Assembly (NCBI RefSeq): GCF_025766255.1 | Contig: NW_026516686.1 | Span: 372,001-436,000 of the forward strand | DNA: 64,000 nt | Origin: Zychaea mexicana | Taxonomy: Eukaryota > Mucoromycota > Mucoromycetes > Mucorales > Lichtheimiaceae | Reading direction: 5' to 3' | Part shown: piece after piece, positions 22,182 to 54,090 of the stretch | Layout of the letters: each line of letters opens with the position of its first letter | Numbering within the stretch: the first letter of the stretch is position 1 | Program-made: the position numbers and the translations under genes | Notes under the pieces: generated by a model | What the model was told of the DNA's origin: nothing | The model's database searches: none | Seen by the model: the letters and a program-made list of their open reading frames with translations, nothing else

Positions 22182-22826
22182 TTGATACTGTATAACCCAT
22201 GTTTGCAGTGGAAAATAATCTTCTTAGATAGCTCATATAAGTTTGCAGATGTAATAAAAATATTCGCGGGTGTCGTTAAAGTGACACTGAGAACGTGCAT
22301 TAACAATGACCGTGGCCACATATACAAATTGTCTGTACAGTACCTCTATAGAATGGTTTAATACGCTGGAAAATAGAGTAGTGATTTCTCGTGTTGCTAA
22401 TCCCTTATTATGACACGTGCAGTGGAAAAATATCGATTGGTTGAAGTCTCTCTGAACCAGCGCTCATTAAACTACCTTATGTGATGCTGTTCGACCTTTG
22501 CAGAAAAACGAGTGATCAGTTAGAGCAGCCGAACCAAACGAGGTGGAAGAATCTCTGTTGCACTGTCCATCTAACACAAAAGTAACTGATAGAGAAACAT
22601 TCCCAATGCTGCGGGCGATCAGCTATAAAGAATGTTTTAACAACATGAAATACTGCTTTTTTACCTCTATCATCAACAAGAATGGGCCTTTATCAGCTGT
22701 ATTACTGCCCTTGCCCGACTGCAGATGAATATTTTTTTTTCGTGGTAGCATTAACGCGACTGGCCACATCAACCGCGTTTTCCGAATCTATCTCTTTCCT
22801 TTTTTTACATAAAACCCCCTCTCCAT
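22182..22826. other. Intergenic region between dioxygenase and large OB-fold gene
   Basis: About 645 bp without a supportable gene. The first 100 bases probably hold the dioxygenase 3' end (AATAAAAATA near 22253). The pyrimidine-rich 22770-22825 stretch just before the next ATG looks like that gene's 5' leader. Confidence 0.4.
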
Positions 22827-25800
22827 ATGACCCTTTTGTCGGTAAACAAGCTATGTAGTAAACGTAGCAGCACTACCTCTAACGAAACAAAAGCTGACAT
22901 TGTCGGTCGGTTCACCGTCGTGACTCGGGGAAACGACAACAACAGACGAAAGCGAGGTGGCACAATCCTTCTTACCGATCTCGTTACGCACGATTCCCTT
23001 TATTGTCGCATAGACCTATTCCATCACGACCTCGTCAATGTCGCAGTCAACATTACGCGCTGGAACTATATTCATCCTGATTATACCCTCAAGAATGACG
23101 CCAACGACGTGTTCAACAACATGCCGACGACAGCTTGGATTGAAGTGTATTTAGACGACGTATACCCACTCGGCAATCCGACGACGTCTATGCTGCAACA
23201 ACTGCTCAATGCAGACAAGATTGCCAACGAGTTACTTGCTTCGATTCCAGACATTGATCTGGTGTCCATTCCTGATTTGTTACATCCGATCAAGCGTTTA
23301 TCGCAAGAACAGCAGCAACAACAACAACCAATTCACGTCCTTGGTCGTGTCAGCGCAAAACCTGTTCGCCATCTCGAACGACATGGAACAGCAAGGTTTT
23401 ATATCGAGCTTGTGGGCTATCGGGGTGATACGTCGACAGTTATGGTGTTTGATGGCGATGATCTGATGTCTTGGTATCATACATTTCAGACAGATAGTTG
23501 GCATGTGTTTATGTACGTCGTCCCGGTTGATACGCAACTGGATGGGCAACTTGGTCGTGGTGCGCTTGCGTTTATCTCGGGTAAATCGCGCTGCTATCGA
23601 GTGGATGCGGATCAATTCGAGCGAATCAACCTCGGAATATCATCATTGCATAATGCGGTTCAAAAATCTGGAGAAGAAGAAACAGCAGAAAGCTCACAGG
23701 AACAACAACATCAATTCTTTCAACCATCGGCAACTTTGCGACCAGCAGAATCTACCAGCATGAGCACATATTCAGCCACAATCACGCGAGTGATTGACCC
23801 AGCTTTCGGTGTATATGAATTGGATAACCAGCTCATAACGTGCCTGTTCCACTATACCGATTATTCACTCGTTTACCCGTTCCGCCTGGGCATGCAGATC
23901 CAAATATCCTGTGCACACATGCTTGCTGTGGACACTGGATCTGCCATCATGCAAGCATGGGAAGCACCTGCGGTCGAGCGAGGTGACTACAAGACGCATG
24001 TGATCCTTGTTGGTTGTCGTCGAACCCATATCCGTATCGTCGGTTTCCCACAACATGTCCAATACCCATCCACAACAACAGCAGCAGCGAAAAAGGCATT
24101 GTCACTCTACGGACGAATTTACAAGGAATGCATCGAGACACGGGCGGATTTTGACACGTTACTGCAAAAGCTGGAAATGGAGGTGGCGCTGACACGCAAA
24201 TTCAAAACAGGGATCCCCGCAACAGCTCGGTTACGCAAGATCTGTGCCATTACAACACGCAAGGTGAAACCCAAAAGACCGTTTGGTGGCAGTATGTACA
24301 TGGACGTTTTTCATCACGATCAGTCGTGTTCGGCCGTCAAGACGCGGGAAAGCACGGTGAAATTGAATAAGTTTCCGTACATATGCGATTTGGCGACGTT
24401 TTTGTTGGAGGACGAGGAGCGGGCGCTGCAGTTGTCCAGACATGCTGGTGCAACGGGTACTTCCCGCGAGGATCAGCGGGTTGATTTGATCATGGCACCA
24501 TATGATACTGCGGAATCGGATATGACGGTGATGGGAATGGTGGATGCAATGCCTGACGGACGACTGTACCTGTTGGATGACACGGGTAAATTGCCATTGC
24601 TGATATTGCCCGAAAATAGCGCGCGACGAAGGCAGCTACAGCTTGGCGACGTGTATCAGATCCAACGGCTCCAGCTGGTCAAAGAGGATCTGGATTACCA
24701 GGAGGAAGGAGGCTCACGGGTCTTACTTGATTGTACATACATTGTTTGCGCTGTGGATGACCTTAAGCGCGTAGGCGTCGTTGAGTCAGCATCTCGAACG
24801 TCGCTCATGTTGCCCGAAGCAGTGGATGTCCGCAAAGTGACAGGATACAAACGGGAGCGAGTGGAGTTGGCTGTAGATGGCGACGAAACTGAACAGCAAG
24901 ATGATGCTGCATCTCACCCGCCCATGTTGCTGTATGTACTGGACATCCAACCGCCAATATTGTCGCATAAAGATGAAGCATTTGAATTGAGCAGCCATGT
25001 TCGAGCGATCCGATACCCCGTTGTCAATGAAGAGGACAACAGCAATAAAAAGAAACCGGAAGAAGTGCATCTCATTTTCAGTTCTCGGACACAGAGTCTG
25101 CGATTTTTGCCGCAGCTGCGGGCCGGCTGCTGGATAGGCTTAGGGGCCAATATTGACGAATTTCAACGGGTGGAGTCCGCTAAATACGTGCCAGAGAACA
25201 TCAAGATCCCCACTTCTATTGCGCTCACACTTGTCATCGATTTGAATCGACACCATATCTTCACCACGAGTCCTAGCAGATACAGCATTGGCGTTACCCC
25301 TACTACCATTGGATCGGTACCAACAAACATAAAGGGTCTTATTGGATCAGCAAAGAAGCAGCGGATATACCAAGTCAAGGACATACTTCCGACGACGACA
25401 ATACCGCAGAAAGCCAAGCTGTTGGTGACGGAGAGTGACGATGACGATGACGATGATGGAGACACCGGCCCTAGCATGGTGGAAGTAGGTCATCGGTTTT
25501 TTCAAGACACGGTGAACGTACAAGGCGTGATTGTCAGCAAAGGATTCCGCGATCAGCTATGGAGGGCTCGAGCGACAATAGACGCAAACGCGCGACATGT
25601 ATTTGAAGAATTCGGTGTGGGTACCGGCCAGTCGGGACGCAACCAGCTATTCTTTCGACTGCGGCAGACAGACGGCTTGGACACAGTTGATATTTACATG
25701 GACGTATGGAACAGGACGTATCCACTCGGACTAATCCCGGGGGCTCTGGTCACATTTTATAACCTTGTACGAAAACGGAGTGAACATGGGACTGTACATT

Positions 25801-26654
25801 GCCAAATGTTGCCATGCACATCGGCGGCAGTATCGGAACAACTTGATCCGCGAACCGAAACGATAATCACGGAGCAAATTCCGCAAAAGAAATTAAGTGA
25901 TATTTCCCGAAAACCGGGTAGCAAAAACAACAACAATAACAACAAAACGGATCCGTCAGTATTTAAGACCCCATGTGCAATTAAATCTATATCCTTTGTC
26001 AGCATGGGATGGGTCTGTGGTGAATGTGGTACGGGCGTTCAGAAGAATAAATGTTATCAGCTCTGCAAAACGGCGAAACGGATATTTACGGCAAACGCGG
26101 TCGCTACGGTGAGCGATGGAACGTCCCAGGCACGTGCTAATTTTGATGGAGACGGGCTTGTGTTCAAATTACTCAACATCCAAGACAGCCGAGCCGACAA
26201 GATCAAAACGGCAGTCTTGGAGCATGGCAAGGTCACGTATCAACATTTTGGAAACGATGGGCATGACGACGACGACGACGACGACAACGATAATTATGAT
26301 CACCATGGTAACAGCAACAGCAGCAACAATCAAGGCGGAGAAGAAGAAGGCGAACAAGTTGAAGTGTTGTCTGGTGGAATGACGCTACCAAAACTTTGTC
26401 AACGCGTGATGAGTACGGGCAAGGTGTTCATGCTATTTGCGCGCGAGATTGGAGAGAGGCTGAAAAAGGACGCAACTGTCATGCAGCAATTGAAAATTCG
26501 CGCAGTGACGGAAGAGGATGGACAACCAGTGGCGGTGGTATATAGACCACGGATTGTTGCGGTGGAACTTCAGCTGCTTGATCCTGCAGACTGCGCGTGG
26601 GAGATGCTTTCGAAACTGCAACAAGGACAACAACAACAGCACAATGAACAATAA
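22827..26654 (+). CDS. Large multi-OB-fold protein with zinc ribbon, candidate CTC1
   Basis: A single uninterrupted frame of 1275 codons, unusual beside its intron-rich neighbours. Several blocks look like OB folds: an N-terminal one with GGTILLTDLVTHDSLYCRID and ITRWNYIHPD; a middle one with VMGMVDAMPDGRLYLLDDTG; and a late one near residues 905-985. Near the C-terminus (about 1055-1130) a zinc ribbon WVCGECGTGVQKNKCYQLC is followed by ATVSDGTSQARANFDGDG. A zinc ribbon inserted before a DGTxxAR strand recalls RPA70 domain C and the last OB fold of CTC1. Human CTC1 is about 1217 aa with seven OB folds and acts with STN1 and TEN1 at telomeres and in fill-in synthesis by DNA polymerase alpha. 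Homopolymeric Gln, Asn and Asp runs (for example about 855, 1140 and the Gln-rich tail) are likely loops. Identity is an inference from layout; another single-strand DNA-binding protein is possible. Confidence 0.6.
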   Translation: MTLLSVNKLCSKRSSTTSNETKADIVGRFTVVTRGNDNNRRKRGGTILLTDLVTHDSLYCRIDLFHHDLVNVAVNITRWNYIHPDYTLKNDANDVFNNMPTTAWIEVYLDDVYPLGNPTTSMLQQLLNADKIANELLASIPDIDLVSIPDLLHPIKRLSQEQQQQQQPIHVLGRVSAKPVRHLERHGTARFYIELVGYRGDTSTVMVFDGDDLMSWYHTFQTDSWHVFMYVVPVDTQLDGQLGRGALAFISGKSRCYRVDADQFERINLGISSLHNAVQKSGEEETAESSQEQQHQFFQPSATLRPAESTSMSTYSATITRVIDPAFGVYELDNQLITCLFHYTDYSLVYPFRLGMQIQISCAHMLAVDTGSAIMQAWEAPAVERGDYKTHVILVGCRRTHIRIVGFPQHVQYPSTTTAAAKKALSLYGRIYKECIETRADFDTLLQKLEMEVALTRKFKTGIPATARLRKICAITTRKVKPKRPFGGSMYMDVFHHDQSCSAVKTRESTVKLNKFPYICDLATFLLEDEERALQLSRHAGATGTSREDQRVDLIMAPYDTAESDMTVMGMVDAMPDGRLYLLDDTGKLPLLILPENSARRRQLQLGDVYQIQRLQLVKEDLDYQEEGGSRVLLDCTYIVCAVDDLKRVGVVESASRTSLMLPEAVDVRKVTGYKRERVELAVDGDETEQQDDAASHPPMLLYVLDIQPPILSHKDEAFELSSHVRAIRYPVVNEEDNSNKKKPEEVHLIFSSRTQSLRFLPQLRAGCWIGLGANIDEFQRVESAKYVPENIKIPTSIALTLVIDLNRHHIFTTSPSRYSIGVTPTTIGSVPTNIKGLIGSAKKQRIYQVKDILPTTTIPQKAKLLVTESDDDDDDDGDTGPSMVEVGHRFFQDTVNVQGVIVSKGFRDQLWRARATIDANARHVFEEFGVGTGQSGRNQLFFRLRQTDGLDTVDIYMDVWNRTYPLGLIPGALVTFYNLVRKRSEHGTVHCQMLPCTSAAVSEQLDPRTETIITEQIPQKKLSDISRKPGSKNNNNNNKTDPSVFKTPCAIKSISFVSMGWVCGECGTGVQKNKCYQLCKTAKRIFTANAVATVSDGTSQARANFDGDGLVFKLLNIQDSRADKIKTAVLEHGKVTYQHFGNDGHDDDDDDDNDNYDHHGNSNSSNNQGGEEEGEQVEVLSGGMTLPKLCQRVMSTGKVFMLFAREIGERLKKDATVMQQLKIRAVTEEDGQPVAVVYRPRIVAVELQLLDPADCAWEMLSKLQQGQQQQHNEQ

Positions 26655-34080: not shown

Positions 34081-35590
34081 TGTCAAAAACAATGAACTCA
34101 ATTTCAGAAGAACTTAACACCACGTGGGATGGATTCGATCTCGCAAAGGCTGCTTGCTATGCATGGGACAAGAAGAATGGTGTCCCGTTGCGTAATATTA
34201 GAAGTAATAAGACGGGAAATAAGAGGAAGCTCCAGATTGCTTGCAAGCATTATGGTGAGCCGGTCAAACAAGGGCGTATGTGAAGAGCAGAAGACTACGA
34301 CAAGATAAATGGTCATAATAGACGACAAGAGCGAGGCCATTGCGTCATTCAAGGATAAAAAGATCGACACTGGTCATATGGACTCTCAACGGTTTGGTTG
34401 CAAATTCTAAATGAACCTTCGTCCTTTGAACCAGACCAGCGACCAATGGCACATAGTCTCTTTCTATGAAGGCGGCCACAACCACGAGATAGCAAACAAG
34501 CCTTCTTCGTACCCAATGCTCCGTCGACTCGATCATGATGAGGAGGTCGTTTAGAAGACGGTACAAGCGCATGTAACCAACAAAGCTGTATTGTCTTATC
34601 TTGCCAGCAAGAACAAGGTTGCTCATTCAAAAGATGTCAGCGCATATTCGACAACGACCCAGATCATGCAATGTTCCAGCTGATCAGAAGCTTCAAGAAA
34701 ACGAGTACGGAGTCCAATAAAAGCAAAACAGCAAGGCGACAGACGTTTTTTGCAGTCTCTCTTCTTTGCGCACATATTGGCAACCGCACTCGCTCGCCAA
34801 ATCCCGGAAGTTGTTACCGTGGACGCCACTTATAAGACAAACAAGCACCGGTTACCATTTATCAACATTGTCGGAAATGGCAATATCGGATACCCGCATT
34901 TGATGAAGTTTTTGCATTGCTGGTTGCTGATTAACAGAGGAAAACAATGACAGCTACGATTGGGTGATTCGCAAGCTTCAAAATGTGGTTTGGCCAGTTG
35001 ATCAGTTCTCGTCCCCTGGTGTGCTTGTAGCTGACAGTGAATCTGCCGTAACCGGTGCTCTTGACCGCGTTTTTCCAACGTCAAAATGCAAAATCCATGT
35101 ACGACGCAACTTCAGGGTCAACCTACGCAAGCTTTTTGATGTCATGGTTACGAGGAACTTGGAAAAGCTAATAATTTTTTAATGGCTAGTGAATATCAAG
35201 ACAAGTTCAACGATACGCGATCCAAAATATCAAACGATAAGCTCGAGATAAAGGCAATGAAGATGCATAAGGAGGCTGCTCAAATGGCAAAAAGACCCGA
35301 CGTTCTCAAGGATTATTTTCACAGGTGTGTAATATTGAACAAGCATGGGGATTTTTTGACCACATGCTACTTGAGATTTAACATGTTTTCGTAGTACAGA
35401 AAGCTTGCTTCCAAAGACAAGTGGTTAGACAATTACCTCACTCATGTATGTAACTCATTTTGAAGATGAAAGCACCAACAGAGTCGAAGGGATGCATGCC
35501 AACAATAAAAAAGGCGATAATGTCCTCGGGTGGCAATTCCCTAGCTGCCTTTACGCAAATCGACGAGTTTCATCGATTGAAGGTATATCT
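34081..35590 (+). pseudogene. Decayed MULE transposase with FAR1-type N-terminus
   Basis: In several frames: an N-terminal FAR1/WRKY-like part (NTTWDGFDLAKAACYAWDKK, later LRPLNQTSDQWHIVSFYEGG with HNHE), then the MULE DDE core (PEVVTVDATYKTNKHRLPF, then VLVADSESAVTGALDRVFP and CKIHVRRNFR), and a C-terminal trace (NRVEGMHANNKKG). VDATYKT and ADSE carry acidic residues expected in the catalytic centre. Frameshifts near 34280, 34400, 34930 and 35180 and several stops make it non-functional. I could not identify terminal inverted repeats. Confidence 0.8.
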
Positions 35591-35703: not shown

Positions 35704-35805
35704 ATGGCTATAAGGGTGTTACACAGGCTGATATAGCTTGGCTTAAGTGTCAATTATCAGCTGGAAATCCCCTCCGCCAAGACTGCTATAGTCACTGATA
35801 GAGCT

Positions 35806-35861
35806 TTGCGGTTTAGACTATTTGGTCTAACCGCAAAAACCGCAAAAACCGCAAACTTCGG
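35806..35861 (+). repeat. Left end of candidate KDZ element
   Basis: TTGCGGTTTAGAC, a TATTT loop and GGTCTAACCGCAA form a hairpin, followed by tandem CCGCAAAAA units ending at CTTCGG. The same arrangement, complemented, ends at 46808. The asymmetric tandem part shows that this is a true inverted pair rather than just a shared palindrome. Confidence 0.7.
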
Positions 35862-35933
35862 CTGTTGAATGATTTGACCTCAGTCCAGGGCTGGTGCAAA
35901 ATTAACTATTCGTTTTTATTACACTGCATCTTA

Positions 35934-37554
35934 ATGACAATGCTCCCAAACAACGACACCAACCTCATCCCTCTGTACACGTACGCCCTTGCAATTTTTT
36001 CTAAGGAGCAGCGCCTCAGAAGCGAGGTGGAAAAGCGTTTCCTCGAGACTGAGGAAAACGTGGTGGGATTCCTCGTGACCAATACGGGAGGTGATGTGCA
36101 GCGTTCTTGTGCGCTTAAAAGCGAAATCGCTCGCTTGAAGGCTCTTCGCGATGTCAGAACCGTGCAGCAGGCTGACGAGGCAGCATCTTCTAGTTTTGCT
36201 GGAGAAAACGCGACCATGAAAGCCGAGATTGCGGCAATGGAGAAGCAGCTCACTGAGCAGTGGAGGACTCGCCGTGCCGCGATTGCCGAGAAGTACGGAG
36301 AGGATGTAAAGTCCTTGGATGCACCAAAGTTGCCTTTTCTTCGAAAGAACGCTGGAAAGGTCACTGCATACAATATGTTTCAAAAAGAGTTGTATCTCGA
36401 ACAAGGTCGTAAACATTTTTTAAGTTACTTATTTGTAGATCGATGCATGCTAACAAGTACTATTTGACTATCACCAGACCGCAAACGGTATAAGCATGAT
36501 CGCAGCCAAATAGGCAGCATCATGAGCGAAAAGGCCTCGATGTGGAACAGTCTTAGCTGGGAAGATAAAGCTTTCTACCAGGAAATGGCTGACGAGCATA
36601 ACAAGCAGCAACCCGCTTCTGAGCTGCAAAAGAAAAGAAGCGCTTTTGTTAAACTGTCAGGTTACCTTACCCGTAACTTGACAATGTTGAGAGAAGAATG
36701 TGGTGTGGAAGGAATCTGTTTTGTCGCACCATGCAACATTAACAACGCTATCCAACCCGATCAGGATGGATATGGCTCTGGTAACATTCTGTGGTTCTAT
36801 TATAAATGAACGCGATATTTATCTTATCAATTTCTGATGAACAAAACTTAGATGGCGGGATGCACTTCTGGAGCTTGATGCAAGCAGGAGCAATTGATTT
36901 GAATGGGAAAAATTTCAGTCACCATTTCAAAGATCAAATGCTTCAATACAACAAACAGCTTGGTAAGCTTATTTTGCTCTACTTCAATTTTTTTGTACCA
37001 ACTACATGTATGCTCATCTATCACTGAAGCTGCGTCCAAGAATGATACTTCCACCCAACAACCCTCCTCTTCTTCCTCCGCATCCGCATCCGCATCCGCA
37101 ACCGATAGCACTGCTGCTCCTGTGACATCTATTTCCTCGGGCCCGAATCAAGTGCCATCCATGACGACCCAAAGGCCCCGAACGGCTCAACATGATGGAG
37201 TGCAGAAATTGAGGAATATCATTGCCCAGAAGTACCGTACGTTTTTATTATAGATTAGGAGTGTCAACGACCTGACTTTGTGGATCTCGACGTACGAATA
37301 CCTTTTTAATACGTTTTACCTTAGGACAAGCAATATTTGAGAATTACCAAATTGCTCTCCCAGAAGGAAGAAAAATGGCATGGCAAGACAAAGCAATGTA
37401 TCGCGATATTGTCATGTCAGGCTGGCCTGAAGGAACCGAACGCGTCAACCCCAGCCGTTTACTGCAGCATGAACGAGATGAAATCGAGCGTCGGCTGGTA
37501 TCGGGTGAGCTCAAGTTTGTGAAGGCGCCACAACAGCAGCGACAACATGATTAA
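35934..37554 (+). CDS. HMG-box-like protein inside candidate KDZ element
   Basis: Five exons (35934-36405, 36478-36780, 36852-36962, 37030-37236, 37325-37554), all with phase-1 introns, give 440 aa. Residues about 20-130 are helical and charged, likely coiled coil (RSCALKSEIARLKALRDV, MKAEIAAMEKQLTEQW). Residues about 141-202 resemble an HMG box: AYNMFQKELYLEQDRKRYK, then ASMWNSLSWEDKAFYQEMAD. A second region has CGVEGICFVAP and GMHFWSLMQAGAIDLNGKN. A Ser/Ala/Thr-rich linker follows (about 300-345). The C-terminus has a second partial HMG-like block (MAWQDKAMYRDIV) and WPEGTERVNPSRLL. An HMG-type domain would suggest DNA bending or chromatin association. It starts about 70 bp from the candidate terminus and is undamaged, which fits an element-borne accessory gene. 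The start at 35934 is preferred; an in-frame Met at 35865 would overlap less typical sequence. Confidence 0.7.
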
Positions 37555-40500
37555 AGCCTTCTTCTCCTTCTTCTTGTTCAAAAAAATACCTTTTCTACTA
37601 TCCTCCACTGACAAATTGCTAGGACCACTTGAACTACTCTACACTTGCATTGCTGGAAGGACTTTAGTGGGAGTTTAAGACTATGAAATAGTATGGCTGC
37701 GGTATGTCTTGGTAAGTTCATGATGTGTACATAGGGAGAAGCGATGGTACTTAAAGACATGCATGTAACGCTTAATCACATTCGAAGTATATGTCTCCAT
37801 ATTTTCCTGCTGTAAGTAAGCGTGATCCACTTGTATTTCTTCGCAGTACGCAGCAATTTTTTTGTTGATATCATAACTGGGAATAAAGCAATTAAAATCA
37901 AAACATATCAACATTACATTTAGTTCAGTATTCATAATTTAGTGTAAGCATTTCGATATTTATTATTACTAGCTAGTCGTTATGATTTCTTTTCGCGCGG
38001 GAACATCTATACGGCAAAGTGTGAGCTCCTTTTGCTCAGAAACGAACCGTCTAACAAACAACTTTTAATAATAATTTTCACCTCAAAAGAGGGGATGGTA
38101 GGGTGGCATGGCTCTATCTAACGTATCCAATGATACTGCACAAGTATTCTTTAAAGATTTTACATTATTTCCACAAAGGGCAAGTCTACTGTCAGTGAAG
38201 TGTTAGCTCAATGATAACTTGTAGGCTAAAAACAAGAGAATGTTAAGTCTATTAGTTATACATGCATCTCATACACATTATCCACCTCTTTTGATGACAA
38301 TGAGCAGATACAACATACATATTACTGTCATGGTGACTCCTATAGCAAGTGGGTAGGTGGCATCGATGAAAGCACCCTTGCTATCTGTCTAACTTAATGA
38401 TGGTAGCTCTCTGTCATCAGTGTACCGGCATTCCCTGCCATCGACTTGACGGCACCCATCTTTCGAAGTGCGGCAATAATTTGCTCAAGGTTAAGTACAC
38501 TTCTTGAGATATCCCTTCAGTAATCCGCTTTGCTACAGTATTACTTCGACATAGATGAAAAACGAGAGCTTAGAATTTGAAATAGTCTACTAGAAATAAA
38601 AAAAATGTACGTACATTGAGGCACACAAACTTGCAGACAATACAAAAATGTATCTCGAAAAACCCAATCCTGTTGGTTTGTTTAAAGTAGATATCTGATA
38701 AAAGGTATTAGCAAGAGCAGGCGATCTTCTTTAGTAGAGTTCATAGAAGTTCAATTCTATTTGTCTCTTAGCTTTCTTTGTGAGATACCATTTTTTTTAA
38801 TATGAATAGTTCCTGACTATCATGTGGTTCTTCCAGTCATTACCACTATACTTGAGTTGTTAGATGGTATGATCACTACTTGTGCGATGCTGGAATGATG
38901 TAGTCATTTACATATTATACACATATCTTTCTGTTTTTAGGGTCGATTATTTATCATAGCCACGTTTACGATAATGCATACGTTGATAGGAAGTATCTGC
39001 AAGAGATGAACACTTTCATCGAGGCAAGTTTTTTTGGGTATAGCACAGTTCATTGTGAAGGATGGATGATTGATAATCTTTTTCTGGGATACACTCGCGT
39101 CGACTCCTATAAGCTCACTTTTCAGTGAATTTAAAATGAAATGAATGAGCTATGGGTTTGTAATAAATACTATTGAAAGCATCTCCGTTGGTGCTATGGA
39201 TTGAAGCTTGAACCTCTATAGACAATGATGGCTACAACCAATGTCAAGGCCGGGATAATAACGATGTGAGAAAGAGGTACTGTACGCACTCAAATCTGAT
39301 CTCTACAAGCACCTATGTAAAGATATATTGATGCCAAAATAAAAATACGGAAGATCTCTTAAACTACAACGACCATTTTACATAGAAAGAAGCGATAAAG
39401 TTCTATATACAGCGGCAGATCTTATTATCTTTACAAATAGACACAGAGCAAAGCATCAACAAACCAAACGTTGTACTTATCTACTGCTCGTTTAAGGACG
39501 GTAAGCTGCATCCATCAGGTACCTTATACTTCAAATATTTCTTCCGTTACAGTGAGAAAATTAGGGTAAATTGCAGACAGTTCATTCATGTAATTTGGTT
39601 ATACTGTAGCGCTTAAAACAGATGCATTGTAGCATGGGTCAGGAGAAGGATTAAATGGTAACGATGATGCTCTTCGTTGCTTATTTACATACGCGCAATC
39701 AGCAAGCTTCTCCCTATTGTATAGGCTTAACCTACTATCCTTCAGTCTTAATGCCAGATAGCGTACACTTAATACATTCTACTATCGACGTACAGTGATA
39801 GCCAGCCACTTACAAATGTATCTTTGCAGAGATGCTTTTTACTTGCTATCACTTTGAGCTCCGCTATGTATAGTATGTACTAGAGTGCTTTTCATTTGAC
39901 ATTGTTACAAAGTCTAATAGGTTTAATGACTGGCACAGTATACGTAATAATTACGAACAGATGATTATACTGAGAAGCCACCCACTTTTATAGGTACAAA
40001 ATAACAGACGTACCGACTTATTTTAGCTATAATAGATGCGCACGCTTGTTGCAGCTATTCTTTGCGATGAAGATTGAACCTTGACACTTTGATTTGGCAG
40101 TGTTTCAACCCAGCCAAAGCATCTGTCACGATTGCAACTATGACAGACGGACTCACCACGTTGCAACTATATGTCTATATTTTTTGAGAACTAAGTTTAT
40201 CGACGTCGATCAAAATACCTTTATATTGAGAAAGGCATTTTATAAAAGCATATTACTTTGGTTTACTTGAGTTAAACTGTAATTTACAGCCTTGCCTTAT
40301 TAAAATCGTGGTAGATGCCCTTATTCTTGCTGAGTTGCAACGTAGCATACGTACCTGGCAGGGTTGCAACTACGACAGACGGACCCACCAAGTTGCAACT
40401 GTATGTCTTGGTCTTTTAAGAACTAAGTTTATCAACGTTGATCAACATACCCTTATATTGAGAAACGCAGTTTATAACAGCATATTACTTTGCTTTGCTT

Positions 40501-41831
40501 GAGTTAAACTGTAATACACAGTCATGCCTTGTTAAAACGTAGATGCCCTTATTATTTTTGTGAGTCGCAACATAGCATACGTACCTGGCAGGGTTGCAAC
40601 TATGACAGACGGACCCACCAAGTTGCAATTCTATGGCAGGAGCATGTCAGTAAGTACACCATAATCATGTCAGTTGCTTATATTGAACTACATTCAAGGA
40701 AGATACATTTCATTTTAGTAGACATAAGCCCATCAACAGTCTATATACAGTATATTAAATTGTTACTACCGAAAGGTCTACTCAATTGATTCCAGCATAT
40801 GCTTGATCTGCATTTGCCATTACTATAAAAGAGCAGAGATGTGATCTACAGTATTCAGTCTCACATATTCCTATATCAAGAACACAGACACTAGTCAATC
40901 TACTTCTTAATACAGTACGCACAAATATAACTGAGTAAACTGTGCTTTGAGTACGTTTATGGGACCTATGTAATGATCTTTACTCGACAAAATGTTGAAC
41001 GGTAGTAAATGAACAATTCATCATGAATATTTTGTGATAAGAAAAACGAAGAAAGATAGGTATATACACATATACTGTACATATGCAGCAACAACATACA
41101 TCTATAAAAGTATAACATCTGTATGATGATTACAGTCGATGGCACAGATTATACTTGCATCGTGGTAAAAGTAAAAAAATATTACCGTATACGTATAATC
41201 AACTACAACGTTACTTTACTTGAGTATTATATATTAATGAGGGATAAACAAATAGTACTACTAGTTCTTGCCCCTTCTTCATAAACCAAACTATACTTCA
41301 TCCATATGATAAAGCCAAGTTAGCAACTAGAAGCTGATCACTGGTCTGCTCTTTATCAGAAATAACATTATACTTATCAACTGATATGATTTTTGCTCTT
41401 CATAATGTGTATAGTTATTACAAATATGTTTGATTGGCGTTTACTAATAGCTTTATCCCGGAGCAAGCAAGTAACAGGCGAAAATGATAATGCTTCTCGC
41501 AAATAAGCAGCACCGAATTGCTTAGTTACAACGTCAGAAAAAGCAGCTGTCAGAGTTGCAACTATGACAGGCACTTCTGGCTCCGCGATAAAATCGATGA
41601 ATGAGTTGCTTCACATAAAAAGAGCACTGGCTACCACCACTATAAACTACCTATATGCGCACCCCTGGCAATGTATCATTCTAGGTTTTACTGTGATTAA
41701 TCTTACATCTTCATATAGCGTGTTTCTTTTTCAACTTCGTACTTACGCACTTAATACAGTACGCCTTTCACTTGACTTAAAAAGGTGTGATGAGAGATTG
41801 CAGTTTTAATCGGAGCTCATTCATACTTTGT
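37555..41831. other. Gene-free interior of the candidate KDZ element
   Basis: About 4.3 kb, AT-rich, with only short open frames. It contains a three-copy repeat at 40131-40640 and a single related 20-mer near 41546. A minus-strand frame at 37681-37935 (NKKIAAYCEEIQVDHAYLQQ, later ETYTSNVIKRYMHVFKYHRF) looks faintly protein-like but has no recognisable partner exons. I cannot support a gene here. Confidence 0.4.
40131..40640 (+). repeat. Three-copy 220-242-bp tandem repeat
   Basis: Units begin with TTGCAACTATGACAGACGG-like motifs at about 40131, 40373 and 40593 and share long stretches such as AGAACTAAGTTTATC, TTATATTGAGAAA, GAGTTAAACTGTAAT and ACGTACCTGGCAGG. The third unit is truncated. 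A further isolated copy of the TTGCAACTATGACAG core lies near 41555. This might be a subterminal or regulatory repeat of the element. Confidence 0.75.
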
Positions 41832-41839
41832 TATATAAG
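41832..41839 (+). promoter_or_regulatory. Candidate TATA box of the zinc-finger gene
   Basis: TATATAAG lies 77 bases upstream of the start codon at 41909, close to the spacing seen for the dioxygenase gene. No other core-promoter element is evident. Confidence 0.4.
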
Positions 41840-41908
41840 CTGTCTTTTTTACGGTCCACGAGCTCAAAGCCTTCTTGATATTCCTACTGCGTTTCTTGCT
41901 CGAAAACT

Positions 41909-43054
41909 ATGTCTCCAACTCCTCCCAGGTATGTTTATTCAAGGAAATTGATTTATCGTGGTAATGGTATATACTAATATCTGAGCAGTAGCCAATACGC
42001 GCTCAACGACGCTGTCTTTTCCACTCCATCCTTACCACCTCCACCTCAATCCACTTTGCCTTGTGGTCGCCCGCGCCGCGCCTCTATGACACCCGGCATG
42101 CCAACGGAAACGTGGTACTCCGACAAATATAACCCAACGCAGTATCCGTTGCATAACTATTGCATCAACTGCTCTACGCAGTTTGTAGCAGACCACACCT
42201 ATAAGCGGCACCTAGTTGATGTCCACAAAGTGCGGTTCGAGCCAGTCAAGCCTGGTCCTAAAAAGACGATATCTGGAACGCTACGTATCTTGAACAAGAG
42301 GCAAAATGAAAGGAAGCGCGCTCTTGCCAAATCGCTGGTATACAAGGGGCAAAGGCGGGACGAAGCTGCAAAAAAGTACCTGAACAAGCTCGTTTCGTTG
42401 ATCGGTGCAGAAAGTTGGCATCACGCGTACCTCAAAATGTTTGAACATATTGATGCTACAATCGATCAAATTGAAAACGAGCCGACCATTGCTGAAAGCC
42501 GTAAGAAGTTTGGTGACTGCTGGAAGTACGCCGTGTACAAACTATGTGCCCTAGAAGGACGGTCAGTGTTTGACCCAACATACGAACACTTCTTTGGCAA
42601 CTTGTTCATGGAAGATGCGTATGATGCCTACAGTCAACTGTCCGGCAGGGATACGCTGAGCGTCAACGATGCGGTCAGAAATGCATTGAGTGACAGGGCG
42701 CCCAAGTTTTTAGCCAACTATGGCCCCAAGTTCCGCGCTTTCCGGTGGATTGGCAACCCCTTGTTGATGCGCGCCACTTCTGACTGTGGTATCGAGCGAG
42801 GAAACGCCACTGACGATGACGATCACGGCGACGGCGACCGCGTGTCGTATTCCAATATATTACGCGAGTCAAGAGAGAAGGAGTGGGCCAGACTCTTGTA
42901 CAAGCGGCACCCGGCCAGCTTAGAGGCAGGAGAAGGAGTAGGAGGAGAGGGAGAAACGGAGGAAGATTGCAGCACTGGTATTGAGCAGAGTGACGGGTAT
43001 ATTAGTGATGATGATGGAGGATTGGAGAGAAGAGAAAAAGACTTTATGTTCTAG
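41909..43054 (+). CDS. C2H2 zinc-finger protein inside candidate KDZ element
   Basis: Two exons (41909-41928 and 41989-43054) join with a 60-bp intron bearing a TACTAAT branch point and give 361 aa. After a Pro/Ser-rich N-terminus (MSPTPPSSQYALNDAVFS) there is one classical finger, YCINCSTQFVADHTYKRHLV continuing DVH, with Cys at about 65 and 68 and His at about 81 and 86 (spacing C-x2-C-x12-H-x4-H). A basic stretch follows (KPGPKKTISGTLRILNKRQN), then a helical domain to about 250 and an acidic, Glu/Asp/Gly-rich tail. I know no named family for the C-terminal part. Convergent with the KDZ transposase gene, 540 bp apart. It could bind element ends, regulate the transposase or be captured host cargo; the sequence alone does not decide. 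Confidence 0.75.
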
Positions 43055-43593
43055 ATGCACATTTTAAAACTATCTACATCATCTTTTACTGGCTTTCATA
43101 TACAATCGATTGTAGGTGAGCGAGCAAATGGATCTTGATTTATGATGTTGCAATTTATTACGCTTGTTCGAATGAGTATCTATGTTTTATACTTAACTTT
43201 TTGTAGCTCTTCGTCTCCCGCCCTTGGGGGAACCGAATGACAAACGGTAAAAGCTAAATAATGCTACTCAGTACGTTTCATGAAAAGATAGCCCTCAAAC
43301 CAGCAGCAGTAAGTGCTAGCGCTAGAATACAATCAATCGCTTTATCCATAATATTTTCCGTTTACCTAATTGTTTTGCAACGGTAAGTTTCACTAACGAA
43401 GTATGCGTTGAACACCTACATGCATAATCGATAGTGCCGATGCATTCTGTTTTCCATGGTAGTATACACCCATTGATTAGAGATTGCCTGCAGACGCTGT
43501 AGCCAAACATCGATCGGGATAACTTCTAAAGATATCTAACCATAACAACAGTAACATTTGATCTTAGTTTTGTTGATATATTTACTACTTTTT
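43055..43593. other. Convergent intergenic region
   Basis: 539 bp between the stop codons of the zinc-finger gene and the KDZ transposase gene. It is AT-rich and should hold both 3' UTRs. No other feature is seen. Confidence 0.4.
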
Positions 43594-46500
43594 TTATACC
43601 GGAACTTCATCGGCAGCGAAAATGCTCTCGAACATGTTGTCATCTTCATCGATCCACTCTTCGTCATCGTCATCGTTCTCATTCTCTCCTTGCAACTCGG
43701 GTGCCAGCTCTACTGTCTCCTGGTCACCTTCACCTTCTTCATCATCTTCGTTATCATCTTCGTTTGGCTGTCGTACTGTTGTCGATGCAAGTCTGGACTG
43801 CGTAGCGGTGCCGTTGAAAGCTGATCCATCAGCAATTTTGGCTAATAGCCGCTTCTGATCTTTCACCCATGTCTCGGCTCTCTCCAACTTCCGCTTCAAT
43901 ATAACCACCATGCCTTGTCTCTCGTACCAGAATCCGGCGCTCAAAGGTACTTGCAAGTTTTCCGGTACAGATGCAATGGCGTCTTGACGCTTCTTCACGA
44001 CGTCATCGCCGAATCTAATAACTGAAGCAGCTTCGTCCTTTTTTGTTTGTTTGCATATTAGAGTCGCAGATACATTGCTCAGTTTCTTACGCGCGATTTA
44101 TTACCTTCAAAATTTCGAGCTCTTCGTTGGCTCTTTTTAAACCATGGAAAGCGTCATAGGGTGCATCGTTTTCCACAGGAGAAATGATGTTACAGCGGAA
44201 ACGAAAGTGGCTGTTCTTTTTCAACACAGTGTTTGAATCCTTGTACAAGTCATAGCCTGTCGTTATAATTGTACCCTTTAATAACAGCTTCAGTGTATGT
44301 ATATGTATTCTGATAAACTTACCAAAAATTGGAGCTCTTGTTAATTTCTCGATATACTGGTCAAATTTGATATCAACCTGCTTACGAGCGGCTTTTCTTT
44401 GCGCTGCAAGGTTTTGCGTACGATTGTGACCTAGAAAATAATGGCATAATGCAAATTAGTCATTAACCCCATTAAGACATCCTTGATAGCTAATTACCAT
44501 TGCCCTGTTGTTTGAATGCCTGTTCGATTAAATCGTAAATGGCGATGGCAAGACGCAAGTTCTCTATGGCTCTGCTAGAGACGCCAAACCTTCCACCTCG
44601 TCCTGTATTGCTTGTTTCTCTCTGAACCGTCTCATCCAAATGGTCCTGCCATTTCATTGCCATTAAGGCAATGGAAATGTTATCATTCTCTTCAATACCG
44701 GCGTTCCTTAGTGCTTCCAAAGCGTCAGCTTTGAGTTCCACCGCGCGTTCGAACCTACGTCGGAGGTTCACACCTAGTAGTAAGTTCATTATTAGCAAAG
44801 AGCAACGCAGTTTTTAAAAATGATCATGAGAGACTCGGTACCAAGGTTGTCTATTCGCTGCTCGGTAAAGAAGTCAAGAGCAATAGTCAGAGTAAGCCGT
44901 CTGTTGAGAGACGACATGTTACGTGTCATGGCCACAAATCCGTTGAGGAAGGACCAAAGCCGCTCGAGATGCTCCCCATCCTGTATTCCCCACCCCTCTT
45001 TGAGGCGAGGATGAAAGTGGATCTGGCATTCTGGCGAATGACCAGTGATATGGAAAATGCCGACCGCAATAGGTACATCCTTTATACTGTCCAAGCATTC
45101 CGTTTCCTAATAACCAATACACAAGTTTATCGATGTTTAAACTTAATGAAAAGAGTCCAACAAAACTCACCTGCAGGGCCTTGCGAATTTTACAGCCAAC
45201 ATCGTACATGATGCGGATGTCTGATCCATACAATGGCATCTCAGATACTTTTTTTAAACAGCTGAGAACATAGGTGAACCTAGTGATTTATAGATAAGAG
45301 AATCAGTCTTTCGATAATCTTGACATCATCGTATCATCATACTCACTGTTCACCGGCTGTTGTTATGTCGATCATGGCCAAAGGAAGACCGTGACCACAA
45401 GTGCATGCGAATGCACCATTCTGATCAAGATGGTCCATCCGGCCACGTCCCTTTTCAAGAGCTTGCCAAGTACTGCATCCATCAGTTGCCTGAATACATG
45501 AATTTTTAGTATTTCAGCTGCATACAATTGCAATTTTTATCGCTCAAATCGTTTAGACTTACTGATCCACCATACGGGACAACTTGGCGATTTTTCACCC
45601 AATACCAATCTACTTCTTCTTGGCCAGCAAATACCACGTCTTTCGGATCCTGTGCTTTTTTGAATCTGCGTAGTTGCATGTTGCCATCTGCAGCAACAAT
45701 CTTGGACCCGGACTAGCAGAAATATCAGGTCATCAGCTCAGTATATGAAAGTAATTATATGCTAACACTAATCGTGCAAAAGTTTACCTTGTATTTGCAT
45801 GCTGGACAAGCCCTCTCAAGATCGCAATCGTCTCTAAGCTCCTTTTCCAAGTTAAGCATTAACCTTCCATACATTGGAAGTGCTTCACTAAGACGTTGCT
45901 TGAAGCTAGCAGCAATCGGAAGCTACATGAATAATCAACTATAAGTGACACTTGTCCAATAACGCTTTCACCGGAAAAAATACCTTTTGATGATACTCTG
46001 CTTGGGCCCAACTTGCAATGGAATGGACCGAAACACGGCAAATGTAGTGCAGGTTATGAAAACTGCGCATTTGCTCGATATGAACAGCGTGATTCGGCCC
46101 TGATGGTGTCATGGGAAACAGGTGGCGGCGCATCAATACCAACGGCAACGAATGATCTGGGCACTCGCTGCAATATTTAACTGTGGCAGTACGGATACCT
46201 GAAGCATACATGTTAACATCAGTAACATATTCTTCCTTTGTTTCAAAGATATGATTTCCTTTTATACGCACCGCACTTGTAAATACAAGTAACAGTCTTT
46301 TCCTTTCGCTTGCTTTCAGGACAATGGCAAAGCAGAGGATCGTCAATGGGAACCAGCGCCTGAGGTGCAGGCTCCTCAATACCATAACCTTGCTTATAAG
46401 CTGTAAGAAGGGAAGGTAGAATGTTTGCCCAGCTTTGAGCACGATTGTCAGCTTTTCTTCTCTTGTTCGAAGAATTTGTGTTCTCATCGCGCATGGGCGA

Positions 46501-46659
46501 TCGCTTGGACGCTGGCTGAACTACAGGTGGGACACTCAAAGTGCCTCCAAGATCCAAAGGCTGCGTGATCCTGATTACTTTTCTCGCTCCGTTGCTCTTA
46601 AGACTTGCAAAAGATGAGACGCGTTTGTTGCCAAATCCTCGTGCACGTTTGGGAGGCAT
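43594..46659 (-). CDS. Intact KDZ (Kyakuja-Dileera-Zisupton) transposase
   Basis: Eleven exons (46272-46659, 45984-46198, 45788-45922, 45563-45712, 45347-45489, 45171-45279, 44842-45106, 44498-44773, 44323-44430, 44105-44256, 43594-44037) join to 794 aa without a stop. A basic N-terminus (MPPKRARGFGNKR) is followed by Cys clusters typical of KDZ CxC modules (LLCHCPESKRKEKTVTCIYK, then KYCSECPDHSLPL and FPMTPSGPNHA). The RNase-H-like core shows AADGNMQLRRF, ATDGCSTWQALEKG, FACTCGHG, RIMYDVGCKIRK, HITGHSPECQIHFHPRLKEG and GIQDGEHLERLWSFLN. The acidic residues in ADGN, YDVGC and DGEHLER are the likely metal ligands. The C-terminus is a long Glu/Asp-rich tail. KDZ enzymes move large DNA elements in fungi and other eukaryotes. 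The undamaged frame and regular splice sites suggest recent activity. Confidence 0.9.
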
Positions 46660-46750
46660 GTTTATTGGAACTACGGAGAAGGAGGGGAAGTCATGTATTA
46701 TGGGAGTTAATACTGCTACATATCAAAGTCTGGGTCACACGATTCAATTA

Positions 46751-46808
46751 CCGCAGTTTGCGGTTTTTGCGGTTCTTGCGGTTAGACCAAATAGTCTAGA
46801 AACCGCAA
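46751..46808 (-). repeat. Right end of candidate KDZ element
   Basis: The complement reads TTGCGGTTTCTAGAC, TATTT, GGTCTAACCGCAAG, then AACCGCAAAAACCGCAAACT. It differs from the left end by a 2-bp insertion and a few substitutions. It lies about 90 bp upstream of the KDZ start codon and so probably overlaps the transposase promoter. Confidence 0.7.
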
Positions 46809-46819
46809 GTTATAAAACG

Positions 46820-48536
46820 ACACTAGCGACAGGGGCCGGAGTATTACTAGGATCAAGCGACAGTACTGCCTCCCGTGATTTGCTTACCATGTACCAGGTT
46901 CAGTGAAGCCGTATTGATGTCATCCTGCAAGCTCAGCCGTGCCTCTCATACACTGTCGATGCTTGGACAAGTGAATGGAAGGTTTCGTTTCTTGGTATCA
47001 CTGCCCACTGGATCGATGACGACTGGAACCAACAATCCATTGCCTTAGGTCTCCAGCTTCTCTCCAGCCCTCACACTGGTGCCAACATGGCGGGGGCGTT
47101 CCTGAAAGTTTTGAACGATTGGAACCTCGTGTCCAAGCCGTTCTTTCTGACTACCGACAATGCATCCAATATGACGACAATGGCCACAGAGATTGAACTT
47201 GCTGTTGGACGCGATGTCTTTGATGCCGAAGAGAATCGTATCCCCTGCATCACGCATATAATCAATTTGGCGGTGCAAGCGATCTTCCACAAAGGTTTAG
47301 AAGCGGAAGCGTACGACAATGCAGAGCAAGCCTTGGACAGTGACAACCAAGAAATAACTACAACCATCAATGCAGGTAAATAAGCAAAAAAAAGCAATAT
47401 CCACCCATCAACATGTGTATAGTAATTAAACTTAATTTACCTTAGGCAAAACGTTGCGTAAGCTTCGCAAAGGGATTGTTGCCATCAGAGCGTCTCCACA
47501 AAGACTGGATCATTATCATAGCTCGTTCAAGGTCGTTGCCCACCAACATCCAACTACCGACGATAACGACGAAGCCGTAGATCAGGACGAGATTGAAGAT
47601 CGCCGTGAGCTGGTATTGGACGTTCGCACTCGTTGGAATTCCACATATGCCATGCTCCAAAGAGCTCTTACAGCCAAGCGTGCATACAATACGACGTGCC
47701 GGAATCTCGAGGCCCTTCAAGGATACTTCTTGACAGATGACGAATGGACATGTCTGGAGAAGGTGACCGAGTTACTCCATGAGTTCGCCCGAATGACCCC
47801 ATTGCTGTCTGGCGCTAGCTACGCAACTATGAACCTGGTCATTCTTGCTTACAACCGTTTGCTTGAAAAGCTCGAACTATACATGGATAAATGGGAGGAT
47901 GTAGGTTATAACTCTATATATGCGTATTTCCATCGAACACTATTTATCACATACTTACACGACTACTTCTTCATATGTTAGACATGGCCTGAGCTAGTGC
48001 ACGCAACACAATGTGGTTGGGAAAAGCTCAAAGGGTACTACTGCAAGGCTCAAGGCCACTCTTTTGCCGTTGCTACTGCCATGGACCCTCGATTAAAATA
48101 CGAATAGTGGGAAGACGAGAACTGGGGAGAGTATCGCGAGGAGGCTATTGAGATGGTGCAGAAGACGTGGCAAACATATAAGCCATCAAGAACGCAAGAA
48201 CCATCCCCATCAAACCCGGATGCGTTGATCAAGAAGAGGAGATCGAACACGGACCAGCTGGAAAGATATGTTTCCACAGATACAGTAATCGACGAGTCTG
48301 ACGGTGAGCATACTTCGATCGTTTTGGAGTTCTGGCGGAGGGACGTGAACAGTGGCCAAGAGTTGAGGCAAATGGCACGCCGATACTTGGCGATTCCAGC
48401 CTCATCAACAGGATCTGAACGGCTTTTCTCCCGTGCCAAGCAATACATTCCAAGTGAACGGAATCGGCTTGGGTATAGTAAACTGGAAGCAAGTGTGCTG
48501 CTCGACTCGTGGTCCAAGTATTTTGGTGAAGATTAA
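46820..48536 (+). pseudogene. 5'-truncated hAT transposase with two nonsense codons
   Basis: Three exons can be followed (about 46820-47372, 47456-47899, 47982-48536). Motifs: SDSTASRDLLTMYQV, YTVDAWTSEWKVSFLGITAH, KPFFLTTDNASNMTTMATEI, CITHIINLAVQAI, DVRTRWNSTYAMLQRAL, and the hAT dimerisation region MARRYLAIPASSTGSERLFS. The BED zinc finger and N-terminus are missing. In-frame TGA (46904-46906) and TAG (48105-48107) codons are each explained by one C-to-T change (CGA and CAG). The rest of the frame is intact, so inactivation looks recent. The truncation point coincides with the right end of the KDZ candidate. Confidence 0.85.
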
Positions 48537-52543: not shown

Positions 52544-53770
52544 TTATTTATTATTATTATAAAATAATAATAATAATCTTTTATATGAATCATCAACCCA
52601 GAATGATTCGTTTAAGTAATAGCAAATAACTAAAATTCCAATATGACATAATAACATAATTATTAATAATACAAAATTATTCCAATCTCTTAATGAAATA
52701 ATAAGGCAAACTAATTTATGTAATAAAGGTCTATTCTTAATAAATTCTTGTTCTTCAATTTTAATTAGTTTACTTAATATACCTAAAATTAAAAAGAAAC
52801 AACCAAGAATTCCAATAAATGTATATAGACAAATACATAAAATTAAAATAGGAGTAGGATTTCCATCACTACCTCTAAAATATTCATTTAATAAATTAAA
52901 TACATCTTGTGGATTTTCAATGAATTTTGAAATTAATTCTACAAAAATATTACTATTTTCATTTAGAGAATTAATTCTGAAGTTTCTATCTGGTGGAGGA
53001 CTACCAGATCTTTCAATAGAGTGATAATACATTCTTTCATACATTTCTCTCAATTTTTTTCTTTCTTCATAGTTATGATTCATCACTTCACCTAATCTAT
53101 AAGTAGCAAAACCACCAATAGTACCAACAACACCTAAAAATAATCCATTTCTAGGATTTGTTTTTGCAATTTTAACTGCAGCAGTTATTGTTGTTCTAGA
53201 AATAATTCCCGCAGCAACTCCAGGAGAAGTAATTAGTTTATCATTTTTAAAATTACTATTTGATGGATGATTATTTGACCCTGCACCTCCATCTCCAAAA
53301 TAAACATTAAAAGTATTTTTTGAAGGATTTGTATTAGATGAATCAGGGGCAGAACTTATATAAATTAATAAACTTAGTAATACTAAACCTAAAGAGCCTG
53401 TAAAAATGTTAGAAAGATTATCATTTAAGAGGTGAATAAATTCTATAAAATAAAGATGAATAGAATCAACTAGAATATTAGGAATTAAAAATATAGATGC
53501 AAATCTAAAATGATTTTTATCTGTAGAATAGTAATACTTATGTTTAATAAACTTAATAATGGATAGAATATTATTCTGTAATAAAGAATAATAAGTTTGT
53601 AATAATCTATTACATCCATAAATAAGTATTTTAAACCAATAACTAGAAATAACCCAAACTAAGTTTAAAGTTAATCGCAGGATACGAAGGGGGAATAGGG
53701 CGATCGCTAAAATTTTAAAAGACATTTTTGTAAACATTTTTTTTAATAAATTAATAAAATTAGATAGCAT
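52544..53770 (-). CDS. Intact plasmid-type membrane protein, 408 aa
   Basis: One open frame starting at the ATG at 53768-53770 (MLSNFINLLKKMFTKMSFKI). Hydrophobic segments: about residues 16-45 (ILAIALFPLRILRLTLNLVW), about 88-110, about 125-145 (TGSLGLVLLSLLIYISSA), about 205-225 (LFLGVVGTIGGFATYRL), about 310-340 (ILILCICLYTFIGILGCFFL) and about 370-395 (VLLIIMLLCHIGILVICYYL). A Gly/Asn-rich stretch NVYFGDGGAGSNNHP lies at about 155-170 and a charged region KKLREMYERMYYHSIERSG near 240. I do not recognise a named family; uncharacterised membrane proteins of this kind accompany the polymerase on mitochondrial plasmids. No TGA is needed for Trp, so code usage does not discriminate. It is surprising that it remains open while its neighbour has decayed. 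Expression in the nucleus is unlikely. Confidence 0.6.
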   Translation of the reverse strand: MLSNFINLLKKMFTKMSFKILAIALFPLRILRLTLNLVWVISSYWFKILIYGCNRLLQTYYSLLQNNILSIIKFIKHKYYYSTDKNHFRFASIFLIPNILVDSIHLYFIEFIHLLNDNLSNIFTGSLGLVLLSLLIYISSAPDSSNTNPSKNTFNVYFGDGGAGSNNHPSNSNFKNDKLITSPGVAAGIISRTTITAAVKIAKTNPRNGLFLGVVGTIGGFATYRLGEVMNHNYEERKKLREMYERMYYHSIERSGSPPPDRNFRINSLNENSNIFVELISKFIENPQDVFNLLNEYFRGSDGNPTPILILCICLYTFIGILGCFFLILGILSKLIKIEEQEFIKNRPLLHKLVCLIISLRDWNNFVLLIIMLLCHIGILVICYYLNESFWVDDSYKRLLLLFYNNNK

Positions 53771-54090
53771 CAATCAAAAAATACTATTTTTTTAAAAAAT
53801 AAAGACATTTAGTTTCTCATAAAATAATGATACTTATAGAATCCACCTCAAAATGTATGTCTGAATAAGATCCTATCTAGAAGGAAAGAAGTATGTTTGT
53901 TTTTTTTCCTTCTAAAGAGGTTTAATCAATAATTTAGTGATTACCAAAAATTCTTAATTTTTTATCAGTCACTAGATTATTAAAATTGTATATATCTTTT
54001 TATATTTATTTGAATATTAATTATGTCATAAATCTATTATGCCATAATGTTCATTAGAAAGGTAAAGTAACACTTTACCCTTTCTAAATG

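Follow-up and report, generated by a model that had tools for sequence, protein, structure and literature searches.

The 64-kb window analysed here, that is, the whole stretch of Zychaea mexicana DNA whose first lines stand above (contig C146, positions 372001-436000), contains an 11-kb KDZ transposon that encodes, alongside its transposase, an HMG-box protein and a single-finger protein of C2H2 type. The element is probably (at a rough probability of 0.6) an autonomous, recently active cut-and-paste transposon with three dedicated proteins, among which, we infer, the HMG-box protein would serve as a cofactor that bends the ends and the C2H2-type protein as a regulator or second binding factor. 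Judged from sequence, past transposition is attested by the copies of the element and by its target duplications, all comparisons having been made within this one genome (50.3 Mb in 305 contigs).

The borders of the element were defined as the limits of homology between copies with differing flanks. The original prediction had described a candidate complete element at 35806..46808 with inverted ends of 56-58 bp; the inverted repeats are real (66 nt, 88% complementary, 35814-35879 and 46733-46798, the runner-up inverted pairs nearby being 33-34 nt at 74-79%), but they are subterminal and not the termini, since homology between copies extends 48 and 46 bp further out. The first 21 bases of the element occur exactly at four genome sites (C146, C207, C78 and C61) and the last 21 at five (C146, C207, C111, C69 and the decayed C276). 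Three further sites match the first 21 bases with at most 3 mismatches. Of these, C2 is a rearranged remnant whose adjoining 146 bp match the right end of the element at 89%, and C36 and C296, as read, have no element sequence adjoining. The CAGCT start is also found at C143, C49, C277 and C272, and C190 has CAGGT. A search for the subterminal array pattern that tolerated up to 3 mismatches gave eight genome matches, all of them exact, which corresponded to four left and four right ends with differing flanks. Taken as terminal inverted repeats, the outer 46-48 bp were equalled by 165 of 2000 shuffles in the window family (the near-identical copies of the window element), whereas in a more diverged lineage, here called lineage B, none of 2000 shuffles was equally good. 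For the whole 130-bp ends, none of 300 shuffles was equally good.

The search of the genome for further copies with the same ends and the same three genes, which the original prediction had proposed, yielded a second full copy at C207 that carries all of them, differing from the window copy by 71 mismatches in 11,090 aligned bases (99.4% identity), with all three genes open in both. Mismatches between the two are fewer in coding sequence (15 in 4,798 bases) than elsewhere (56 in 6,299; Fisher p = 0.00015). The remaining copies C78, C61, C111 and C69 are interrupted by contig ends; within them, the KDZ gene is open at C69 under an earlier 816-aa model, C111 covers only 8 of the 10 exons in that model, and lifting the exons over to the HMG copy at C61 reveals stops. 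The occurrence of several near-identical copies with common ends and genes, in differing flanks, supports a recently active transposon, in line with the recent transposition originally proposed.

The target duplication associated with this activity appears best read as 6 bp, not as the 8 bp that had been expected, and none is matched at the two ends of the window copy, whose flanks come from different targets. In all five fetched empty sites of the left-flank repeat, the repeat leads on to the same sequence that adjoins the right end of C207, the two overlapping by 6 bp, AATTAT (a sixth locus, L020, is a chance match only and was left out of the count), and this duplication extends to 8 bp only if the last two bases of the element are counted. 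Comparison of the lineage B copy C49 with one empty site (C35) gives ACTTTT, also 6 bp with a differing seventh base, and C277, likewise of lineage B, is flanked by CCCTCG and CCCTTG, with one mismatch at 6 bp. Under the 6-bp reading two sites are perfect and C277 has one mismatch; under a 7-bp reading one site is perfect, and C49 and C277 have one mismatch each. Since the base preceding the duplication is C at all five right ends of the window family, 6 bp is favoured over 7. The right-flank repeat (window 46855-47250) has 19 matches and 8 other copies at 97-99% identity, and the seven other copies fetched continue without the element; it matches no Pfam model at E 0.01, and its hAT-like label was given by eye only. 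These 8 copies suggest that not all neighbours are old, as the original description of the surroundings as decayed transposons had it, and that the right-flank repeat was recently active too; on the left lies a fragment of a MULE transposase (34931-35179). A reading of C207-left and C146-right as one insertion, with AGCGA shared, was rejected because the other seven fetched right-flank repeats differ before the site.

Table 1. Coordinates of the KDZ element, its genes, its candidate cis sites and its flanks in the 64-kb window.
Feature	Position	Strand	Remarks
Left copy of 6-bp target duplication, AATTAT	35752..35757	+	Partner at right end of C207 copy, not at right end of window copy
Whole KDZ element	35758..46854	+	11,097 bp; 5'-CAGCTGG ... 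CTAGGATC-3'
Outer left end	35758..35805	+	4 copies; CAGCT start common to diverged relatives
Left subterminal inverted repeat	35806..35879	+	Four AACCGCAA octamers (35806-35854), 80-128 bp upstream of HMG start codon
HMG-box protein gene, 441 aa	35934..37554	+	Exons 35934-36408, 36478-36780, 36852-36962, 37030-37236, 37325-37554; Pfam HMG_box_2
Spacer palindrome, 24-bp CTGTCATAGTTGCAACTATGACAG	40123..40146	.	3 mismatches; in first ~230-bp direct repeat
Spacer palindrome	40355..40378	.	4 mismatches; second direct repeat
Spacer palindrome	40585..40608	.	3 mismatches; third direct repeat
Spacer palindrome	41547..41570	.	1 mismatch; 430 bp upstream of C2H2 exon 2
Single-finger C2H2-type protein gene, 361 aa	41909..43054	+	Exons 41909-41928, 41989-43054; homologs at 8 other loci
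KDZ transposase gene, 794 aa, 11 exons	43594..46659	-	Candidate catalytic D255, D370, E425
Right subterminal inverted repeat	46733..46808	-	Four AACCGCAA octamers (46758-46808), about 100-150 bp upstream of transposase start codon
Outer right end	46809..46854	-	Reverse complement GATCCTAGTAATAC; partly common to diverged relatives
Right flank, AAGCGA	46855..46860	+	Inside repeat hAT-like by eye; target differs from that of left flank

The three gene models were predicted from sequence, with GT/AG introns by construction. The transposase reaches the 794 aa originally given for it after a 66-nt intron is spliced out, a step required by the reading frames of four relatives (C231, C143, C55 and C49); the 10-exon, 816-aa model, rejected in its favour, had retained this intron and gave an apparent frameshift in C207 that opens once the intron is removed. 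On the 816-aa model, Pfam assigns KDZ (PF18758) at 139.1 bits (cut-off 26.6) and CxC2 at 31.7 (cut-off 27.0). The residues that we take to be catalytic are conserved in 12 of 12 (D255), 9 of 12 (D370) and 11 of 12 (E425) rows with a letter at the position, in a 13-row alignment patched from tblastn pieces, where some misses may be misalignment. The HMG-box protein scores 24.5 bits for HMG_box_2 (cut-off 22.4) and falls below the cut-off for HMG_box (17.3 against 25.4). The C2H2 label was given by eye to one C-x2-C-x12-H-x4-H pattern at residues 65-86; an AlphaFold model from 5 sequences was too poor for a fold search (mean predicted local distance difference test score 41.5), and a tblastn search of this protein against plasmids gave no match. 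Searches of solved structures returned nothing convincing, HMGB1 chains such as 5zdz matching weakly (E 0.2). The description of three undamaged multi-exon genes therefore stands as regards their open frames here and in C207, but the HMG protein has 441 aa, not 440, and the zinc finger lies below Pfam cut-offs.

The same gene set recurs in diverged relatives. In C143 the HMG, C2H2 and KDZ genes agree with those of the window element in order and orientation, with a DNA identity of 66-72% (its KDZ match stops at residue 235), and the lineage B copies C49 and C277 have the same three-gene layout, each of the three loci lying on a single contig; identity of the transposase over shared columns is 71% for C143, 56% for C49 and 62% for C277. 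The C272 locus is partial, with the lineage B left end and spacer and no detected C2H2 or KDZ gene. On these alignments the three-gene set is old, recurring with its order kept in three copies that belong to two diverged lineages, and conservation of that order makes the three genes look like working parts and not passengers. Linkage of the C2H2 gene to the transposase is tight: with all 12 candidates scored, eight of nine loci with C2H2 homologs have a KDZ gene no more than 5 kb away, whereas the 5-kb surroundings of the listed KDZ loci make up about 1.2% of the genome. The ninth, C82, has no KDZ match, and its C2H2 match stops 788 bp short of the contig end.

Viewed from the transposase, at least 50 KDZ loci were found (two hit lists merged by hand, with 55 of 151 candidates scored in one of them). 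Among these 50, a C2H2 gene lies within 5 kb at eight, an HMG gene within 15 kb at six, and both at five; the 42 without a C2H2 match within 5 kb, among them C69 and C111 as contig-cut copies of the window family, suggest that the gene set is specific to a lineage. This agrees in part with what was originally named as evidence against the proposal, namely KDZ copies with different ends and no HMG or C2H2 neighbours; it limits the set to one KDZ lineage but does not undo it.

In line with functional partnership, the ratio of nonsynonymous to synonymous rates (dN/dS) against C143 was 0.21 for HMG (429 codons), 0.20 for C2H2 (326 codons) and 0.11 for KDZ (546 codons, 816-aa model), which supports purifying selection on both partner genes; dS exceeds 1 in these comparisons, so the ratios are rough. 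At least 60 codons were required (40 in the HMG run), and the C2H2 and KDZ rows exclude C207, the copies being too alike; for HMG the ratio against C207 was 0.90, but changes were too few to judge (pN/pS 0.36-3.65 on bootstrapping). Collectively, the shared ends and genes, the ordered recurrence in relatives and the purifying selection support the proposal that the HMG and C2H2 proteins are element-encoded partners or regulators.

Three further loci were noted beside this gene set. A KDZ gene of more distant relationship, at C1:255964-267669, has an HMG-related frame about 10 kb from it in the same relative layout, without a C2H2 match, and may represent a further lineage. Two stretches in opposite orientations, C289:187005-187952 and 194025-194910, are 79-80% identical to the lineage B HMG gene and left end. 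Within the HMG gene span of C49 there is a repeat of about 375 bp (L081:5734-6107), absent from C272 and present at 27 other places at 93-97% identity, which looks recently active.

The element also carries candidate binding sites in two settings. The AACCGCAA octamer occurs eight times in the window against 2.1 expected, a count reached by none of 100 shuffles, and all eight copies lie at the element ends, four at each in mirror order; similar arrays are found inside the lineage B ends and at C231 and C46. The second setting is the long spacer between the HMG and C2H2 genes, mostly unalignable between lineages, in which the half-site of a 24-bp palindrome accounts for eight occurrences against 0.2 expected in the window, none lying outside the spacer. 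The full palindrome, with up to 7 mismatches allowed, is present four times here and eight times in C143, and a scan of 231 kb, some of it in overlapping loci, found matches only upstream of C2H2 genes. The palindrome nearest the gene is better evidence than such counts: it lies 430 bp upstream of C2H2 exon 2 in the window copy and 437-462 bp upstream in C143, C231, C55 and C82, keeping 19-23 of 24 bases, and in each case none of 500 shuffles was equally good. The spacer of lineage B has another motif, GATGCGCAAC, three times. Three direct repeats at about 230-bp spacing (window 40097-40635) contain one palindrome apiece, and a search of the spacer for a further coding gene common to the lineages found only palindromic repeats and short weak matches.

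Several observations weigh against a dedicated three-protein system. The C2H2-type protein falls below every Pfam zinc-finger cut-off (the best, zf-C2H2_3rep, scoring 13.6 bits against 30.8), and in lineage B a histidine replaces the second cysteine of the finger. The palindromes are not independent of one another, three of the four here lying in the ~230-bp repeats and six of the eight in C143 recurring every 66 bp, and the 20 crude window shuffles, which gave four palindrome matches altogether, ignore this repeat structure. Additionally, C143, C231, C55 and C82 are alike at the palindrome and count as one lineage, and lineage B has no palindrome (best 13 of 24 bases, with 470 of 500 shuffles equally good). 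Because the two flanks of the window copy are unrelated, the two full copies may have exchanged flanks by recombination, or the assembly may be misjoined at that locus. Finally, C231, C55 and C64 have a C2H2 gene beside KDZ with no HMG match, and only 6 of 22 HMG-related loci (two lists merged) have a listed KDZ match within 15 kb; HMG genes also exist apart from detected KDZ genes, some of them, such as C61, being cut by contig ends.

The absence of an HMG match at those three loci, together with the 16 HMG-related loci lacking a listed KDZ match within 15 kb, would also fit the two extra genes being passive cargo captured from the host, but this is very improbable given the same gene order in two diverged lineages, a dN/dS near 0.2 for both partners and the single C2H2 locus of nine, 788 bp from a contig end, that lacks a KDZ match. 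More improbable still is a composite locus in which the HMG, C2H2 and KDZ genes come from separate nested or neighbouring transposons, as the mismatched flanks and their origin in other repeats might suggest: C207 has all three genes between the same two ends, C143, C49 and C277 keep the order on single contigs, and no HMG-C2H2 copies with complete ends and duplications of their own apart from KDZ were found in the genome.

If the transposon is autonomous and has three proteins dedicated to it, its DDE-type transposase would recognise the AACCGCAA arrays just inside both ends, and the HMG-box protein could bend these ends and build a paired complex, by analogy with HMGB1 and RAG. The zinc-finger protein would be a second sequence-specific factor, in the simplest version a regulator of the element that recognises the 24-bp palindromes upstream of its own gene. 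As the terminal arrays lie directly before the HMG and transposase start codons, their binder could also control expression of these genes. An alternative that we consider unlikely, yet the most credible of those weighed, is that the HMG and C2H2 proteins act as regulators or anti-silencing factors while the transposase cuts and joins alone; the palindromes before the C2H2 gene suggest regulation, whereas HMG-box proteins often bend DNA, and the sequence evidence here cannot separate the two roles. Returning to three dedicated proteins, we put forward only tentatively the fuller version, a self-contained transposition system with its own DNA-bending cofactor, a site-specific regulator, end arrays and an operator-like palindrome, kept across diverged KDZ lineages. 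Such a system would be a eukaryotic DNA transposon independent of host architectural proteins.

Elsewhere in the window, an intronless frame of 1299 aa at 22755-26651 (+) matches CTC1, a component of the CST telomere complex (73.1 bits in Pfam, cut-off 27.8), and is likely a host gene, and an open frame of 409 aa at 52547-53773 (-) matches no Pfam model at E 0.01. A comparison of the window with Rfam found nothing.

Many fungi contain KDZ elements, which are large. Iyer et al. in 2014 reportedly described basidiomycete KDZ elements with an HMG-domain gene, often accompanied by TET/JBP genes. Those elements reportedly share with the present one a KDZ transposase, a cysteine cluster and an HMG-domain protein on one element, whereas the present element additionally has a C2H2-type partner and spacer palindromes; no TET/JBP Pfam match was found in the 10 open frames and two spliced proteins scanned. 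The original suggestion that the gene set had not been described before is thus tempered for the HMG gene, reportedly known on KDZ elements. No title or abstract describing a KDZ element that carries both an HMG and a C2H2 gene was found in a search reaching open-licence full texts only, nor was an account found there of the C2H2-type partner and its tight linkage, of the 6-bp duplication or of the palindromes. A further parallel is the RAG recombinase, a DDE enzyme helped by HMGB1, a host HMG-box DNA-bending protein; here the HMG protein is encoded by the element and not by the host, and the likeness is one of analogy only.

Fungal KDZ elements frequently carry accessory genes, and the giant KDZ elements of brown algae are likewise large with extra genes, no HMG and C2H2 pair being named in the accessible part of that account (PMC12477816); the accessible parts of two other papers mention KDZ only in lists (PMC7473861; PMC11075540). 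The 8-bp duplication of Zisupton and Dileera is not seen here. Kyakuja elements, in the available portion of their description, have 7-bp duplications and CA..TG ends without inverted repeats (PMC12730594); a CA start and a short target duplication are common to both, whereas the element described here has CAG..ATC ends, a duplication best read as 6 bp and clear subterminal inverted repeats. Similar in size are KDZ1-KDZ3 of Cryptococcus, about 9-11 kb with KDZ and CxC domains, which according to the accessible main text, where the words HMG and zinc finger are absent, have terminal inverted repeats of 139-241 bp and duplications of 8 bp (KDZ1) or 4-8 bp (KDZ2 and KDZ3) (PMC12810828). The range reported for KDZ2 and KDZ3 makes 6 bp compatible with the KDZ superfamily. 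In the part of the Cryptococcus work available, KDZ movement was shown and what extra genes contribute was not put to the test. The present family, with two full near-identical copies, intact genes, defined ends, short target duplications and candidate binding sites, makes the requirement for partner proteins directly testable.

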